From assembly GCA_019038705.1 (NCBI GenBank), contig JAHOYX010000049.1:1-35067 (forward strand): DNA of 35,067 nucleotides, read 5' to 3'. Of this stretch, positions 7,935-16,215 are shown in pieces. A program made the position numbers and the translations under genes. A model generated the notes under the pieces. That model was not told the DNA's origin. It made no database searches and was given only the letters and a program-made list of their open reading frames with translations. Numbering within the stretch: position 1 is the first letter of the stretch; each line of letters opens with the position of its first letter. This DNA is from Spirochaetales bacterium. Its GTDB lineage: Bacteria; Spirochaetota; Spirochaetia; DSM-27196; SLST01.

Positions 7935-9020
7935 ATGAGGAAACACAATTTTTACGCGGGTCCATCCACCCTTCCGTTGCCGGTTCTCGAGGAACTGCGG
8001 GACCAGATGGTTGACTACGACGGCAAGGGCCTCTCTCTCGTCGAAACAAGTCACAGAAGCAAGGAATACGACGCGGTGCACAACGCAGCTCTGGACGGCC
8101 TCCGGAAGCACCTGGAACTCTCCGACGACTACGACGTCCTGCTGCTCGGCGGGGGAGCTACGCTCCAGTTTGGCATGATCCCGATGAACTTCCTGTCGGA
8201 GGGCGAACACGCGGATATCGTGGTGAGTGGCTCCTGGGCAAAGAAGGCCCTGGACGATATGAACGCCATCGCAGCCGCAAACATCCTCTTCGACGGTGCT
8301 GATTCTGCCTATACGACTCTCCCGTCTCCGGAGACGGTCAAGCCTTCGTCCGGTTCACGCTACGTTCACATCGCGAGCAATGAGACCATCGGTGGATTGC
8401 AGTGGAAGTCCTTCCCGAAGACGGGTGATGTGCCGCTCTTCGTTGATATGTCCAGCGATATCCTCAGCCGAAAGGTGGACATGGGCCAGTTCGGCCTGGC
8501 ATTTGCCGGTGCGCAGAAGAACCTCGGCCCGGCCGGCGTTACCGTTGTCATCATCCGCAAGGATCTGATCGAGCAGGGACGAAAAGGCCTGCCGGCTTAT
8601 TTGAGCTATCGCACCCATGCCGACAAAGGGTCTCTCTACAACACACCACCGGTGTTCTGCATCCACGCACTCAGCCTGGTCATGAACTGGATCACCGATC
8701 AGGGCGGCCTCGGGGCAGTAGAGGGAACCAACGACAAGAAGGCGGCGCTGCTGTACGGGATGATCAATGAGAACCCGGATTTCTTTCGTTGCCCGGTTCA
8801 TCCCGCACATCGATCCAGCATGAACGTGGTCTTCCGTCTCCCGACCGAGGATCTGGAGAGTGAGTTCATCAAGGGAGCGGCGGCCGAAGGAATGGTCGGT
8901 CTCAAGGGGCATCGCAGCGTCGGCGGAGTCCGCGCGTCGCTCTACAACGCACTCCCCATCGAGAGCGTTGAAACGCTCACGGGCTACATGAAGTCATTCG
9001 CATCCGGTCACGGGGTGTAG
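7935..9020 (+). CDS. serC: Phosphoserine aminotransferase
   Basis: 361 aa; NFYAGPSTLPLPVL, SHRSKEYDAVHN, GAQKNLGPAGVTVVI; SD AAGAGGAG. Confidence 0.95.
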   Translation: MRKHNFYAGPSTLPLPVLEELRDQMVDYDGKGLSLVETSHRSKEYDAVHNAALDGLRKHLELSDDYDVLLLGGGATLQFGMIPMNFLSEGEHADIVVSGSWAKKALDDMNAIAAANILFDGADSAYTTLPSPETVKPSSGSRYVHIASNETIGGLQWKSFPKTGDVPLFVDMSSDILSRKVDMGQFGLAFAGAQKNLGPAGVTVVIIRKDLIEQGRKGLPAYLSYRTHADKGSLYNTPPVFCIHALSLVMNWITDQGGLGAVEGTNDKKAALLYGMINENPDFFRCPVHPAHRSSMNVVFRLPTEDLESEFIKGAAAEGMVGLKGHRSVGGVRASLYNALPIESVETLTGYMKSFASGHGV

Positions 9021-9676
9021 CCCCACCGTTTGAGATCCGCCTCGCCTGAGGCCGGGCGAAGAACGCCCCCTGCGAATACCTCGATCCGATCGGCGGTGTC
9101 CAGAACGTCTCTGTATGCATGATCGGTGATGAGGACTCCTTTGCGATCGGTGTGCGAGGCGTGCCGGATCATATCCTTGAGCGGTTCCCGGTGGATGGGC
9201 TCAATCTCGGTGAACGGCTCGTCCAGGAAGACGAATGGCGCCGGCAACGAGACAATGAGCATCACCTCCAGGTAGCGCTGTTCGCCGCCGGAGAGCGATC
9301 CGACGCGCTGCCGCTGAAGTGGGGCAATTCGAGGATGATCCAGGAGAGTCCGGCAGATCTCGCTCTCCCCGAGCAACCCTTTCACGGCGCCTCTGACCGT
9401 CATACGACGGGGGAGGAATGGTTCCTGGGCGAGGTAACCGAGACGCTCGGTACGGTAAGCGTGATCCATCGTCTCACCACCGAGGGCGAGGTGCATTGAA
9501 TCGGCGTCAAGAACTCCGAACAGCGCGCGCAGCATCGTGGTCTTGCCGCATCCGTTTGGCCCCAGCACACCAACAATCTCACCGGGTTCGCACTTGAGGA
9601 AGATCCCCGCCAGCACACGATGCTGCCCGAACGAGTGGGTGAGACTGTCTACCTCCAGGCTGCTGATCAGGTCCAT
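9008..9676 (-). CDS. ABC transporter ATP-binding protein
   Basis: Start at MDLISSLEV; Walker A GPNGCGKTT, signature LSGGEQRYLE, Walker B FVFLDEP. Confidence 0.85.
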   Translation of the reverse strand: MDLISSLEVDSLTHSFGQHRVLAGIFLKCEPGEIVGVLGPNGCGKTTMLRALFGVLDADSMHLALGGETMDHAYRTERLGYLAQEPFLPRRMTVRGAVKGLLGESEICRTLLDHPRIAPLQRQRVGSLSGGEQRYLEVMLIVSLPAPFVFLDEPFTEIEPIHREPLKDMIRHASHTDRKGVLITDHAYRDVLDTADRIEVFAGGVLRPASGEADLKRWGYTP

Positions 9677-10038
9677 ATCATCCCCGCTGTCAGCATGACC
9701 GCGCCCACAACGAGAGCCACCGCCCACGAACCGAGGGCGAGAACGCCTTCGCCGAGTCCGGCGTTCCGATAGTACGGGAACTCCCTGCCGTGAAAGAGCC
9801 GCATGGAAACCAGGCCCAGCGCCTGACCGGCGGTCATGACAAGAATCGCTCCCATCAACGCCGCGATCCTGATTGCCCTGCCGGCCGTGTCGGACAACGC
9901 CTGAGCCGTGTCGGCGGAGGCGAGTGATACTGCGAAGAACGCACTCGCCCCCAGCAGTGAAAGGACAAGATTGTAGATGACACACCGCCGGGCAAAGAGC
10001 CAGAGGAGTCCAACGTGTGCCGGAATTCGATGTCCCAT
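9667..10038 (-). CDS. Small (about 123 aa) multi-TM membrane protein coupled to the ABC ATPase
   Basis: ORF from MGHRIPAHVG; about three hydrophobic helices; stop overlaps the ATPase start. Confidence 0.6.
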   Translation of the reverse strand: MGHRIPAHVGLLWLFARRCVIYNLVLSLLGASAFFAVSLASADTAQALSDTAGRAIRIAALMGAILVMTAGQALGLVSMRLFHGREFPYYRNAGLGEGVLALGSWAVALVVGAVMLTAGMIWT

Positions 10039-10060: not shown

Positions 10061-10089
10061 TTGACGGCGTGGGAATGATGCGCTATACT
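10061..10089 (+). promoter_or_regulatory. Sigma70-type promoter for orphan small transcript
   Basis: TTGACG (10061-10066), exactly 17 nt spacer, TATACT (10084-10089). Confidence 0.75.
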
Positions 10090-10130
10090 GGGCTTGGAGG
10101 ATATGATTGGTTCATATACATGAGGTGGAG

Positions 10131-10205
10131 ATGAGTACGCCACCAGTCTTCCAGCGCCGGTGGTACCGGCCTTCCGCTCTTTTTATTCAGCGCGAAAAGC
10201 GCTAA
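10131..10205 (+). CDS. 24-codon short ORF (candidate leader peptide or small protein): MSTPPVFQRRWYRPSALFIQREKR
   Basis: ATG preceded by GAGGTGGAG; TAA at 10203-10205. Below the length threshold of the supplied ORF track. Confidence 0.4.
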   Translation: MSTPPVFQRRWYRPSALFIQREKR

Positions 10206-10240
10206 TTAGCAAGTGATGCTGTCTTGATGCAGCAGATCAG

Positions 10241-10269
10241 AAAGCCGGTAGTGAGTACCGGCTTTTTTT
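10241..10269 (+). terminator. Rho-independent terminator
   Basis: AAAGCCGGTA-GTGAG-TACCGGCTTT stem followed by uninterrupted T-run to 10269. Confidence 0.9.
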
Positions 10270-11761
10270 ATTGGCCGAGCACGAACTCCGACACTGCGTT
10301 GACCAGTTCCTCGGACAGTCCAAATGAAGGATCTGTGTAGGACCGTTGATTTGCCGCAAGGTCCGCCGGCGGGACAATCTTCAGCACGTGGTTCATCCCG
10401 GGTATGACGACCAGTCGGGCATCAGGCCGGGCAGCCGAAAGTGCCTCCGCTTCGGAAACGGGGACTTGAAGGTCTTCGACACCGTTCACGACAAGAAGCG
10501 GCTGCGGGGTGGCCGCGGCCAGAACGGCTGGATCAAACTGGACTATTGATCGAAGGTATGGCTGAACACTCGGCCTGAAGAGCGACGCGAGTTCCTGCGG
10601 AACCTCCGGAACCGTGCTGCCGTCGCGGATGGCGGCGAAAATCTGCCGCGCGCTCGTGAAGAGTGCCGAGTCGGGGCCCAGACTGCGTTCCAGCTGCTCC
10701 AGGACAACGGCATCAAACACTCGCCCGGGTGCGGCAATGCAGATGACTCCCGAGACCGTATCCCGGGCCAGGCGTGCTGCCCGGGGGTCTACACCGAGTC
10801 CGACGTCAAGATCGGCCGCGAGGGCTGAGAGGACTATGAGCCCTCCTTCGCTGTGACCGGCCAGGTATGTGTTCGATAGATCGCCTCTTGTGTCGGCCCA
10901 TTGGACCCAGGAGAGCAGGTCGTTCACGAAATCCGCAAAGATCAGATCCTCTTCCCGGAGACCTTCGTAGACGGATTCTCCGAGCCCCCGCTTGTCGTAT
11001 CGGAGGGACGCAATGCCGGCCCTCGCCAATCCTTCCGCGAGGAGCTTGAGGCTGTCGTTTCGGCCGGGAAGGATATGGCTGTTGCCGTCACGGTCTGTCG
11101 GACCGGAGCCGGCAACGATGATCACCAACGGCGCCTGTGCATCGGTCTCAGGCATGAGGAGCGTGCCGTGGAGAGTACCGCCGTCGATTTCTACGGAGGC
11201 GGCGGTCTCGATACCTGTTGCGGTCTGCCCCGCTGCCGGCAGATCGGCGGCTTCAAGGTCCGCGACCCGCGTGAGTGCGAACTCACCCGACGCACCACCC
11301 TGAGAGAAGACGCCTGAGATCGCGGCGTCGGCGGTGATCTCTCCGTCCGCGACGAGGGTCGGACCCGAGGTGACCAGCTCGAAATGGATGGCGGCTCCTG
11401 CGGAGTTGCCGGTGGCACTGACATTGGTGAGCGGAAGTCCGTACGCCATCTGGACGGGAATGTCCATGGTTGCGACAGAGCGAAGGTCCACAGCCGCGGC
11501 GGCGACGGTTGGATCCTGGAGGAACTTCACGGCAATATCGATCTCGGCACCCTGGACCTTCAGAGATCCTTCCCAAACCCCGACAAACTGCACCTGAACA
11601 TCCTCCCTCTCGCTGTCCTCAACCTGCGCCGGGGTTGCGGCCGGGGTCTCGGCATTGTCAACCGCATCATGACTCGCGCACCCCATGACCAGAAATGCCG
11701 CGAGTATGGCTACCATTCCGATTCCGGTTCTCGCGGTGGTCCCGATGTTCGTGTTTGTCAT
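10268..11761 (-). CDS. Lipoprotein with C-terminal alpha/beta hydrolase (dienelactone hydrolase/S9-like) domain
   Basis: 497 aa; lipobox-like LVMGC; VAGSGPTDRDGNS, GHSEGGLI nucleophile elbow, PGMNHVLK. Confidence 0.8.
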   Translation of the reverse strand: MTNTNIGTTARTGIGMVAILAAFLVMGCASHDAVDNAETPAATPAQVEDSEREDVQVQFVGVWEGSLKVQGAEIDIAVKFLQDPTVAAAAVDLRSVATMDIPVQMAYGLPLTNVSATGNSAGAAIHFELVTSGPTLVADGEITADAAISGVFSQGGASGEFALTRVADLEAADLPAAGQTATGIETAASVEIDGGTLHGTLLMPETDAQAPLVIIVAGSGPTDRDGNSHILPGRNDSLKLLAEGLARAGIASLRYDKRGLGESVYEGLREEDLIFADFVNDLLSWVQWADTRGDLSNTYLAGHSEGGLIVLSALAADLDVGLGVDPRAARLARDTVSGVICIAAPGRVFDAVVLEQLERSLGPDSALFTSARQIFAAIRDGSTVPEVPQELASLFRPSVQPYLRSIVQFDPAVLAAATPQPLLVVNGVEDLQVPVSEAEALSAARPDARLVVIPGMNHVLKIVPPADLAANQRSYTDPSFGLSEELVNAVSEFVLGQ

Positions 11762-11850: not shown

Positions 11851-13176
11851 TTACTCGTTGGTCATGATCAGGGGCTGATGCGTCGTCTCAATTACGTCAC
11901 GCCAGAGACTGGATTCCGGATCGACACAATTGCGTGTAGAAACCACCATCTGGATGGGGACGTGCACGAAGACATTGTTGACCAGGCTGATGATGATCTT
12001 TGTCTTTCCGGCCATTGCAGCGTGAGCCGCATTGTTGCCCAGTCGGGAACAGTAGAGGGAGTCGGTTGGCGCCGCGACTGCGCTCCGGATGATGTAGCTC
12101 GGATCGATGTACTTGAGATTCACGCTCATCCCGATCTTCTTGAAGTGGTCGATAATCTGCCCCTTCAGATAAACCCCGATGTCACCCAGCTTGCGGTTAC
12201 CCGACGCGTCGGTCACGTCGGAGGCCGGGAAGAGTTGCTGGCCCGCGCCCTCTGCCACGATCACCACAGCATGGCCCCGACGATCGAGGCGTTTCTTCAG
12301 ATGTTCAAGGAGGCCGTTCGGTCCATCGAGCTCGAAGGGGACCTCGGGAATGAGAACGAAGTTCGCCTCGTGGCTCGCCACCGCGGTGTGCGCAGCGATG
12401 AAGCCGGAGTCGCGTCCCATGAGCTTGACCAGACCAATCCCGTTGATGGCCGAGTGTGCCTCGGTGTGCGCCGAGGAGACCGTCCCGGTAGCTTCGCCCA
12501 CCGCAGTCTCAAATCCGAAGCTGCGTTGGATGAATGCCAGGTCGTTATCGATGGTCTTGGGCACACCGATCACCGATATCTTCAGGCCACGACGTTCAAT
12601 CTCCTCGGCAATCGCGAGCGCTCCCTTCTGCGTACCATCGCCGCCGATTGAGAAGAGCATGTTGACATTCATCCGCTCTATCGTGTCGACAATGGCTTCA
12701 GTCTGATTGCCGCCGCCTCGAGAAGATCCGAGCACCGTACCGCCGATCTTGTGAATGTCATCCACAACAATCGGGTTGAGTTCCATGGTTGGAATGTTGT
12801 TCTCCGGAAGAAATCCCTGGTAGCCAAATCTCACCCCGCTGATTCGGCGCACTCCGTAGCGGTACCAGAGACATCTGGTGATGGCCCGGATGACATCGTT
12901 CAGACCGGGACACAGCCCGCCGCAGGTGACGATTGCCGCATGGACGTGGCCCGGGGAGAAATAGATCTGCTGGCGAGGGCCGGCTTTCTGGAGAAGCTCT
13001 GCGGGAGTGTGGGTCTTGCTCTCTCGTTGCGCATCCACCTCTATGTTGTGGAGGACGTACTCATCATCCCGAACGTAATTCGCGATTGCATCACCCAGGA
13101 CGGTCGAATAGGTGATGGGCGAAGGGATAGTTGCTTTGCCGAGGGTTTCAACGGTGAAATCGTGGTTTATGGCCAT
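11851..13176 (-). CDS. 6-phosphofructokinase, spirochaete/clade X-like
   Basis: Start [53 protein letters not shown] motifs. Alternative start at 13188 (MLSVM). Confidence 0.88.
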
Positions 13177-13371
13177 AACCGAGAGCATAGCCCGATGACG
13201 GAGGACGCTCAAGCGCGGGGAAAGTGCGTGAACGGCGTCCGAAGAGGGGCCACTTCTCTCGGGTCTTGAAAACGGGAAGCTACTCCTATTGACAGAACGT
13301 TGCCGTCCTCTGCTAGTATGCGGAGGGATGTCGATGACCAGAGACGAGAAGCAGAAGAGCAGTTGGTGCGC

Positions 13372-16215
13372 ATGAACGTGTTGCCCCAGGTCCAACAGCT
13401 ACTCGGAAGCGTCATTGATCTCGGGAACGAGGAATGTTCATTTGAAGAGTGTTTCGAGAACATTCTGTCCTTCCTGATTCGAGAGACCGAGATCGAATGC
13501 GGGTGCATTCTGGCCGAGTTCGAGAATGTCAACAGAATAGCCTGTCATTGTGAAAAGACAGACGTGTGCATATGCAATGCGATTGGGGTCGATGATCGAG
13601 CCGCGACAGCCGACCCTGAGATTCCGTCACCAAACAAGCGAAGCATCTCATTCGGTGACCTGGATTCGGCATACAGCACAATCCTTGGCGAATACGGGGA
13701 AGATTCCATCATCTATCCGCTGTTCGAAAACAAGGAAATGTGTGGTGTCATCTGCCTCCGCGTTGGATCCCAGGGCGGCGAAGTGACAGAACGGATCGAG
13801 ATTATCAGCAGCATCATTCTTCCGTTCATTGAGAAGCTATTCAACGAGAAGAGGTCCAATCTCCAGAAGAGTTACTACTCACTTGAAGCTCGAGTCGCAT
13901 CACTGGTTCATGCGGGAAGCGACTTCAATCTCATCCCGACCGCCATTCTGGAGGGGGTGGGCCTGTCTGCATTGATCCTGCTGGCCCATGACAGGAAGTT
14001 GTCTCGTGTCGAAGTTGTCGCCGGCGAGGCGGGATCGGCAGCGTCCTCTCGGCACTTGATTGAGAATCTGCACCTGGATCTGAGGTCCAACGCGAGGCTG
14101 CGGGGCGTTCTTGAGGACATACAAGGCCCGCAGGTCTTCAGCTCGCAGGAAGCGTTGGATCTGCTGCTCGGTGCCGAGACAGCCGGCGTCGCGGGTAACA
14201 TCCGGGAGACCTTATCGACTCTGAGAACAGGGGAATTACTGCTGTCACCTTCAGGCAACTCCACTGACAACAACCGACTCGTTCTGGCAGCCGTGAAGAA
14301 GGACAATCACGTCTTTGTGAAGTCACAAATCAGCACTCTTCAGAAACTGGCGAGGGATGTCTCCACAGCTGTCGATGGGCATCAGTCAAAGCACACGGAT
14401 CATCAGACAGCAATCAAGGTTGACCTGATCCAGAGGATATCTCGACGAATAATCGACGATTCAGACATCGATGGTGAAGCAGAAATCATCAGACAGGAGT
14501 GCCAACTGCACTCCTGTATCATCTTTCTCCTGGATCGATTGGCGAACACACTCAGAGTCGAAGGGATCTCCTCGAAGTCATCAACATCTGTGTTGGAGGA
14601 GGTCAGGTCAGTCGTCATTAGACTTGAGTCGCTGCACGCCGCGGGATACTCCCAGAGCGATTTGCACCAATTGAAAACAACTACCCTGGATGAATACGTC
14701 GGGCTACTGGAGCACGATACCGATCATGAACAGGCCCTGCTGCCGGCATTGCGAGAACTCCGGAATCTCGTGGTAATCCAGATTCCGCTCTTTGATTCAT
14801 TTCGTCGCCTCCAGGGCTTTCTTGTATTTCTCCGAGAACCGGAAAACCAGGTGCTCCCCTCGGAGGACGCGCTCCTCCGGGAGTTGGGTTCGAAGCTGGC
14901 GAATGCCTTCGAAATTCGAAAGAACATCTACTTCGACACGCTGACCGAATTGCCGAATGTGAAGAGAATCAGGCCGGCCGTTGTCGATAGACTGATATCG
15001 TTCGAGCCATTCAGCTTGATTCTCTGCAAGATCATCAACCTGGACGATATTGTGCTCGCTCGTGGCGATGAGATTGTTGACGAATGCATGATCGAAGTCA
15101 CCAGGAGGATGAAGAATCGAACAGCCCTCCAGACACGGAACGTGTTGATCGGGCGGAACTCGGGTGAAGCTTCATTCATCTTCGTCTATCCGGGCGCGAT
15201 CGACAACCAACTCAAGGCGTTTTCCTCTGAGTTGGTTGAGTGCGTCGCGCAGCCGATCACGATCAACGGAAACTCGATAAGCCTCCTGACCAACATCGGC
15301 ATTTGTCATTCCACCGACATTCGGGACACTGACATGGTTTTCAACTACTCCAAACTGGCAATCCAGTCGATTTCAGATCAGCGAAATGAAATGTGCATCT
15401 TCAATTCCGAAATGCAGTTGGCGTACCTGCGAGAAATGGAGTTGGAAAAAGACATCCGTGAAGCGGTCTCCAGGAAGCAGTTCATCGCCCACTATCAACC
15501 AAAGGTGTCATGTGATGGCACCGTCGTTGGATACGAAGCACTGGTGCGCTGGAAGCGAGAGGATCATATTGCGTATCCAGAGGCGTTCATAGACAAAGTT
15601 GAGAAGATGGGCATGATTCAGGCGCTATTTGACATAGTTTTTGCAAATGTCTGCCGAGACTTCGACGGAAGCGACTACTTGAACAGTGTTTCCGTCAATA
15701 TCGCGCCATCACAGTTGGTGAGTAACGATCTTCATCGCAGCATCGCGACAATACTGTCTCACCATCACATCGAACCGCACAATATCACTCTTGAGTTCGT
15801 AGAAACAGCAATGCTGGACAGCGACTACTACAACACGATCAGGGAATTGAAGAAACTCGGATTCAGACTGTCGCTGGATGATTTTGGTACCGGGTATGCC
15901 AGATACAAGACCCTTCTTGACCTGTTCAATCATGGGATCGTCGATGAAATTAAGATTGACAAGGTGTTCACGGACGATATCGGCTTGCCGGCGAATCAGA
16001 ACTTCATAAAGTCGATCTGCTTTCTGGCCCGGGAGTTCAACGTAAGCATCATTGTTGAAGGTGTTGAGACTCTCGATCAGTTCGCCTGTATCAAGGCCAT
16101 TGATCCCGAAATAATCATCCAGGGTTGGCTGGTGAGCAAAGCGCTGCCACTCGGAGAACTTGGGCAGCTATACGAACAGGAGTCTGGTAGTTGGATGTTG
16201 GAAGGCGGGGTATAG
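13372..16215 (+). CDS. GAF-like/degenerate GGDEF/EAL-domain protein (c-di-GMP phosphodiesterase candidate)
   Basis: [63 protein letters not shown] region reads RNSGEASF. The start at 13372 is inferred; the ORF is open from 13300. Confidence 0.85.

Follow-up and report, generated by a model that had tools for sequence, protein, structure and literature searches.

The segment at positions 10061 to 10269 of the window (the whole 35,067-nt stretch of Spirochaetales DNA analyzed here) raises the question of what a short transcription unit with its own promoter, mini-ORF and terminator might be when the next genes lie on the opposite strand. The earlier note saw in it the layout of an amino-acid-operon attenuator and left three options, namely a stand-alone sRNA, a small-protein gene, or an attenuator that had lost its operon. 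The promoter, SD-like element, ORF, Trp-Tyr hairpin and terminator that it described were each found where it had placed them, and the orientation of the next genes was confirmed. The locus contains the following features:

10061–10089, + strand: sigma-70-type promoter TTGACG-N17-TATACT, by motif match (TTGACG 10061–10066, TATACT 10084–10089)
10096–10269, + strand: predicted transcript of ~174 nt, inferred from promoter and terminator, with the start placed 7 nt past the -10 hexamer
10102–10118, + strand: 5' hairpin ATATG...CATAT, from folding; not universal among family members
10122–10130, + strand: Shine-Dalgarno (SD) sequence GAGGTGGAG, kept as (A)GGAGG in relatives
10131–10205, + strand: mini-ORF of 24 codons, MSTPPVFQRRWYRPSALFIQREKR and stop; conserved in the family only at the start, at Pro-Pro and in the run into H2
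10140–10145, + strand: Pro-Pro codons CCA CCA, conserved across the family
10146–10155, + strand: 10-nt spacer from the second proline codon (Pro2) to H2, fixed in length and free in sequence
10156–10170, + strand: hairpin H2, GCCGGTGGTACCGGC (GCCGG-TGGTA-CCGGC), containing TGG-TAC; in other families a stop codon lies inside H2
10189–10203, + strand: hairpin H3, AGCGC-GAAAA-GCGCT, with both-side changes in 4/4 modelled pairs
10214–10239, + strand: helix H4 (TGAT...ATCA, inner GCTG/CAGC), with both-side changes in every modelled pair
10241–10269, + strand: intrinsic terminator AAAGCCGGTA-GTGAG-TACCGGCTTT plus T-run (10-bp stem 10241–10265, T-run end 10269)

Taken from its sequence alone, the locus is moderately unusual and makes a modest case. 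The promoter matches 10 of 12 consensus positions and ranks first among five promoter-like matches within the first 20 kb, where 6.8 would be expected by chance from shuffled sequence. The RNA folds better than its own shuffles (z = -2.75). The claim that this is the only strong stem-plus-T-run terminator in the 35 kb was a fair one, since it scored 25 and the other two such sites 18 and 17. A generic terminator scan overlooked it, probably due to G-U and A-U pairs that lengthen the stem into the T-run. The opposite-strand hydrolase gene ends in this T-run, which its stop codon overlaps (10263–10270). It is conservation in the family that decides the matter, and the feature stands far above chance because it is conserved across Spirochaetia.

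A BLASTN search with 231 bases against relatives returned one full-length homologue from the same genus (84%), together with short near-identical matches to the 3' hairpin in other families, and on reading, these loci showed a complete common architecture. In a pattern scan of GTDB species representatives the 3' hairpin was found mostly in Spirochaetales/Spirochaetaceae, including the named isolate Alkalispirochaeta alkalica DSM 8900; the few matches outside the spirochaetes had little beyond the hairpin itself in the model search. A covariance model built from eight sequences (R1), which does not check start codon or reading frame, matched 74 of 395 Spirochaetia genomes at E ≤ 0.1. Its match to the window spans 10116–10269 with E = 3e-36, the window's own copy being in the model seed. 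Further members, in families f2, f8, f15 and f33, came from a pattern search for the 5' module; the matches were read by eye, which confirmed seven loci and one further locus found by the model. Homologues were thus recovered in the order by BLASTN and in the class by the two patterns and the covariance model.

A locus was counted as a member if it carried the 5' module, which gave 54 members (46 of the 48 strong R1 loci and 8 others) from 15 families (f1, f2, f4, f6, f7, f8, f9, f13, f15, f18, f30, f31, f33, f34 and f35). Low-scoring R1 matches, at about E > 0.01 per genome, were left out of the count; these and a 30-bit match in Pseudomonas (L059) were rejected as ends of coding genes with GC-rich terminators, lacking the 5' module. 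With R1 and the 5'-module pattern, no convincing member was seen in families f16, f27 and f32 or in the complete genome G011. The window genome itself is ~64% complete. From this distribution, the locus almost certainly belongs to a family of RNA genes conserved in Spirochaetia. The earlier note had named a lack of conservation in relatives and a match to a known Rfam family as grounds for refutation, and neither was observed. Two loci depart from the common form. One (L117, genome G148) starts MLPYGR, a shortened form with one Pro instead of two, and differs in its spacing to H2; the other (L048, genome G006) has lost both a recognizable promoter and Pro-Pro, reads GTG...Pro-Ser, has a mismatched terminator stem, and is probably a decaying pseudogene of the RNA.

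The members share one order: promoter, leader, SD, start codon, 0–3 codons, Pro-Pro, 10-nt spacer, H2, H3, H4 and terminator. In 49 of 54 members a simple pattern located a promoter of the form TTGAC-N18-(-10) ahead of the start, so that by predicted anatomy, with promoter and terminator of its own, the locus is a short autonomous transcript unit. The 5' leader is about 11–99 nt long and often contains a hairpin, which is missing in several relatives with a short leader. H2 is mostly GCCGG...CCGGC. In an alignment of 48 loci, which was fitted to the covariance model and therefore favors the structure, 95.1% of cells were paired and both-side changes occurred in 21 of 24 pairs, a value reached by none of 500 shuffles; all five measures were likewise unreached by any of the 500, and the covariation score was 0.266 versus 0.091 in shuffles and 0.02–0.08 in slid controls. 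H2 could be checked independently of the model through its position 10 nt from Pro2, and here GC, CG, GU, UA and AU exchanges were observed, nearly all of which pair. Judged by these substitutions, the RNA structure is under selection.

The 3' domain of H4 and terminator is highly similar between close relatives. In many families the terminator has a GUNAG loop beneath a stem that has been exchanged (GCCGGTA/TACCGGC, GCCGGCA/TGCCGGC, GCCGGAA/TTCCGGC). This pentaloop (10251–10255 in the window; also L050, L032 and L051–L054) stays constant as the stem is swapped by compensatory changes, as if the loop were recognized in itself.

The mini-ORF shows a different kind of conservation. SD, start codon, 0–3 codons and Pro-Pro were present in 46 of the 48 loci found by R1. 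Among the 54 members the start codon is ATG in 49, TTG in 3 and GTG in 2, and it is separated from Pro-Pro by 0, 1, 2 or 3 codons in 6, 18, 24 and 6 loci. These distances were taken on raw sequence because plain MAFFT, applied to all members at once, misaligned the SD and H3. In a scan from the SD that accepted gaps of 0–12 nt, the nearest start lay 0, 3, 6 or 9 nt from CCRCC; the sole odd alternative was a GTG at 11 nt in L050, with a normal ATG alongside. The gap varies inside six families (f1, f2, f8, f30, f34 and f35), and therefore at least six length changes have occurred, every one of them frame-preserving, for which the chance is about (1/3)^6. Stop codons within H2 point the same way: counted per locus, so that related loci are not independent, 26 of the 54 have one in frame 0 (8 families), compared with 5 in frame +1 and 1 in frame +2, and shuffling of the H2 loop gave a mean of 9.7 frame-0 stops and a maximum of 18 over 2000 trials. 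A single structural loop motif is insufficient to explain these stops, because TGA, TAG and TAA all occur, at varied loop positions. In 7 of the 15 families no member has a stop in H2.

On these counts the start and frame of the mini-ORF are under selection, and the ORF is very probably translated. Conservation of the ORF, which the earlier note had proposed to check, held for the start, the frame and Pro-Pro; the remainder of the 24-codon sequence was not kept. The consensus is M-x(0-3)-Pro-Pro-x3-x-R and the length 9–33 aa, the sequence past Pro-Pro is not conserved, and the two members of the window's genus differ at 9 codons, 8 of them nonsynonymously. The residue following Pro-Pro may be V, I, K, E, D, Y, G or R, and some residues in this place are contexts that give merely weak stalling. 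Pro2 occurs with all four third bases. The first proline codon (Pro1) is always CCR (CCA or CCG) in members, and in the flanking genes 49% of Pro codons end in a purine. The invariant CCR points to an additional constraint at the RNA level, for which a pure Pro-Pro model does not account. Pairing with the SD or prolyl-tRNA choice are possible causes of this CCR, at 10140–10142 in the window and in its homologues. The distance from Pro2 to H2 is 10 nt in every locus except L050, which places Pro-Pro as would be expected of an EF-P-dependent pausing element.

The genomic setting was compared using neighbor names assigned through NCBIfam for one representative each and from reading translations for the remainder. 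In the window the RNA gene is flanked by these genes:

7935–9020, + strand: serC, flanking the RNA gene as in f6/f7
9008–9985, − strand: ABC ATPase gene, between serC and the RNA in the window's genus
10268–11761, − strand: alpha/beta hydrolase gene, between the RNA and pfk in the window's genus
11851–13395, − strand: pfk (phosphofructokinase), flanking the RNA gene as in f6/f7

Upstream neighbors elsewhere are serC (f2, f6, f7), glucose-6-phosphate isomerase (f8), uvrC (f30, f31, f9) and an arginyltransferase (f18), and downstream there is a convergent phosphofructokinase (f6, f7), a gyrB-like gene (f35) or others. The RNA is taken to be a stand-alone gene, because its neighbors differ among lineages.

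This setting bears on the two explanations that tie the RNA to a gene behind it. Transcription attenuation of an aromatic-amino-acid operon, since lost, would account for the leader-peptide-like ORF, the hairpin with Trp-Tyr and the terminator. The Trp-Tyr pair is confined to the window, however; even the same-genus relative has Ser-Tyr in its place, and no run of regulatory codons is conserved among relatives other than the Pro-Pro pair near the start. A co-directional biosynthetic operon is likewise missing in most lineages, the next gene being convergent in the window and most homologues and differing by lineage. The H2 and terminator stems, which share GCCGG/CCGGC in the window and could there form mutually exclusive antiterminator and terminator pairings, vary independently of one another, and there is no conserved antiterminator because they diverge elsewhere (L098, L135 and L136 have different terminator stems). 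The Trp/Tyr attenuator and the H2/terminator antiterminator were both rejected on these grounds, and we regard the attenuator reading of the earlier note as extremely improbable. Control in cis of readthrough into a next gene that is lineage-specific would suit f35, with its co-directional gyrB-like gene, and a few other loci in which a co-directional ORF follows after ~75–120 nt; with a convergent or unrelated gene next at most loci and a strong terminator in all members, this is very unlikely, if a little less so than attenuation.

The other two explanations each take one half of the RNA as the whole. If the locus were a small-protein gene, the 9–33 aa peptide (M-x-PP-xxx-xR) would be what matters and the hairpins would merely protect or terminate its mRNA, in keeping with the in-frame signs of translation and with a near-fixed peptide of 9–13 aa, with Pro-Pro and Arg, in about half of the members. 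Yet length and sequence are free past Pro-Pro, the conserved Arg has its codon in the H2 stem, the peptide is less conserved than the 3' RNA domain, and the differences within the window's genus are mostly nonsynonymous, which leaves this explanation improbable. A purely non-coding sRNA would treat GGAGG, start codon and CCRCC as untranslated RNA motifs, for example through imperfect GGAGG/CCRCC pairing around the start; the invariable CCR of Pro1 is in its favor, and in some members (L007, L015) RNAfold predicts pairing of the SD region with CCRCC. It does not sit well with start-to-Pro-Pro distances in multiples of three only, the interchange of ATG, GTG and TTG, the four-fold variation of the Pro2 third base or the frame-0 stop excess in H2, and we consider it slightly less probable again than the small-protein gene. 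The stand-alone sRNA and small coding RNA options of the earlier note each drew support, and both describe one thing, a conserved, structured RNA that carries a mini-ORF.

The overall reading that we prefer, at about even confidence, is that of a stand-alone small RNA gene whose product is both a translation-gated structured RNA and a mini-mRNA. Peptide-bond formation between consecutive prolines is slow and depends on EF-P, and stimulatory hairpins act about 7 nt past the A-site codon. In this RNA the fixed distance is that from Pro-Pro to H2, distances to the SD and the transcription start not being fixed, and when Pro2 occupies the P site, H2 starts 7 nt beyond the A-site codon. This fixed distance suggests that the ribosome either pauses at Pro-Pro up against H2 or unfolds H2 and terminates inside it. 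Ribosomes would load at the strong Shine-Dalgarno sequence and slow at Pro-Pro, at which point H2, 10 nt downstream, would sit at the mRNA entry; the ribosome would then either wait before H2 or open it, ending at the stop that is often in the H2 loop. Occupancy of the 5' module could in this way govern how the RNA folds, how stable it is or how available. That the Pro-Pro/H2 pause acts as a gate is a tentative proposal. The downstream ORF is free to vary, as would be expected if its product is of no importance. The conserved domain of H4 and terminator is likely the effector part, which would act on other molecules, although our confidence that it is trans-acting falls a little short of even. 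A free-standing sensor of ribosome occupancy, in which the pause before H2 switches activity or stability and reports EF-P, prolyl-tRNA or general translation status in trans through the 3' domain, with no operon in cis, is a more specific version that we consider rather unlikely.

The RNA was also compared with known families and similar systems. A search of Rfam 15 (4227 models, at gathering and relaxed thresholds), a check the earlier note had proposed, found nothing at gathering score, either in the window or in 20 homologous loci, except for one neighboring tRNA gene, and the best sub-threshold matches were terminator look-alikes such as rseX and STnc430. 6S RNA was excluded, with no RF00013 match at the locus and a separate 6S gene in carriers G068 and G070, as was tmRNA, with no RF00023 match at the locus and a tmRNA elsewhere in each of 10 genomes examined, 9 of which are carriers. 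At the Rfam model threshold 6S RNA was present in G068 and G070 and was not seen in G008, G011, G013, G014, G015, G052, G077 or G095. Open-access literature on spirochaete sRNAs, Pro-Pro small RNAs and the cultured carriers contained no description matching this RNA, and the predicted family is previously undescribed and not in Rfam.

In size and as a structured bacterial RNA it resembles many Rfam sRNA families. SgrS/SgrT, RNAIII and SR1/SR1P are dual-function small RNAs that likewise combine a structured part and a short ORF in one small transcript, but their peptide is conserved as a product, whereas in the spirochaete RNA conservation is limited to the start, Pro-Pro and the distance to the hairpin. 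Polyproline or EF-P-dependent pausing elements and Pro-codon leader peptides such as mgtL also have Pro codons in succession near the start of a short ORF, before an RNA hairpin; they control a downstream gene in cis, and the spirochaete RNA has no downstream gene under such control. A further parallel is rnTrpL/peTrpL of Sinorhizobium meliloti, an attenuator-derived sRNA with a leader peptide (PMC7298713), in which a leader-peptide ORF, hairpins and an intrinsic terminator also make up a short RNA, and for both RNAs action in trans is proposed. Unlike rnTrpL, the spirochaete RNA is stand-alone, without a downstream biosynthetic operon or antiterminator pairing, and, Pro-Pro excepted, it lacks a series of regulatory codons for a single amino acid.

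The family adds a class-wide RNA gene to the spirochaetes, and is a case of a leader-peptide/attenuator layout turned into a stand-alone gene. To our knowledge, few small RNAs are known in these bacteria. If Pro-Pro pausing does gate the RNA, translation of a few-codon ORF would control the very small RNA that carries it, and EF-P-dependent pausing would serve as a signal, which could be tested directly in cultured free-living spirochaetes.
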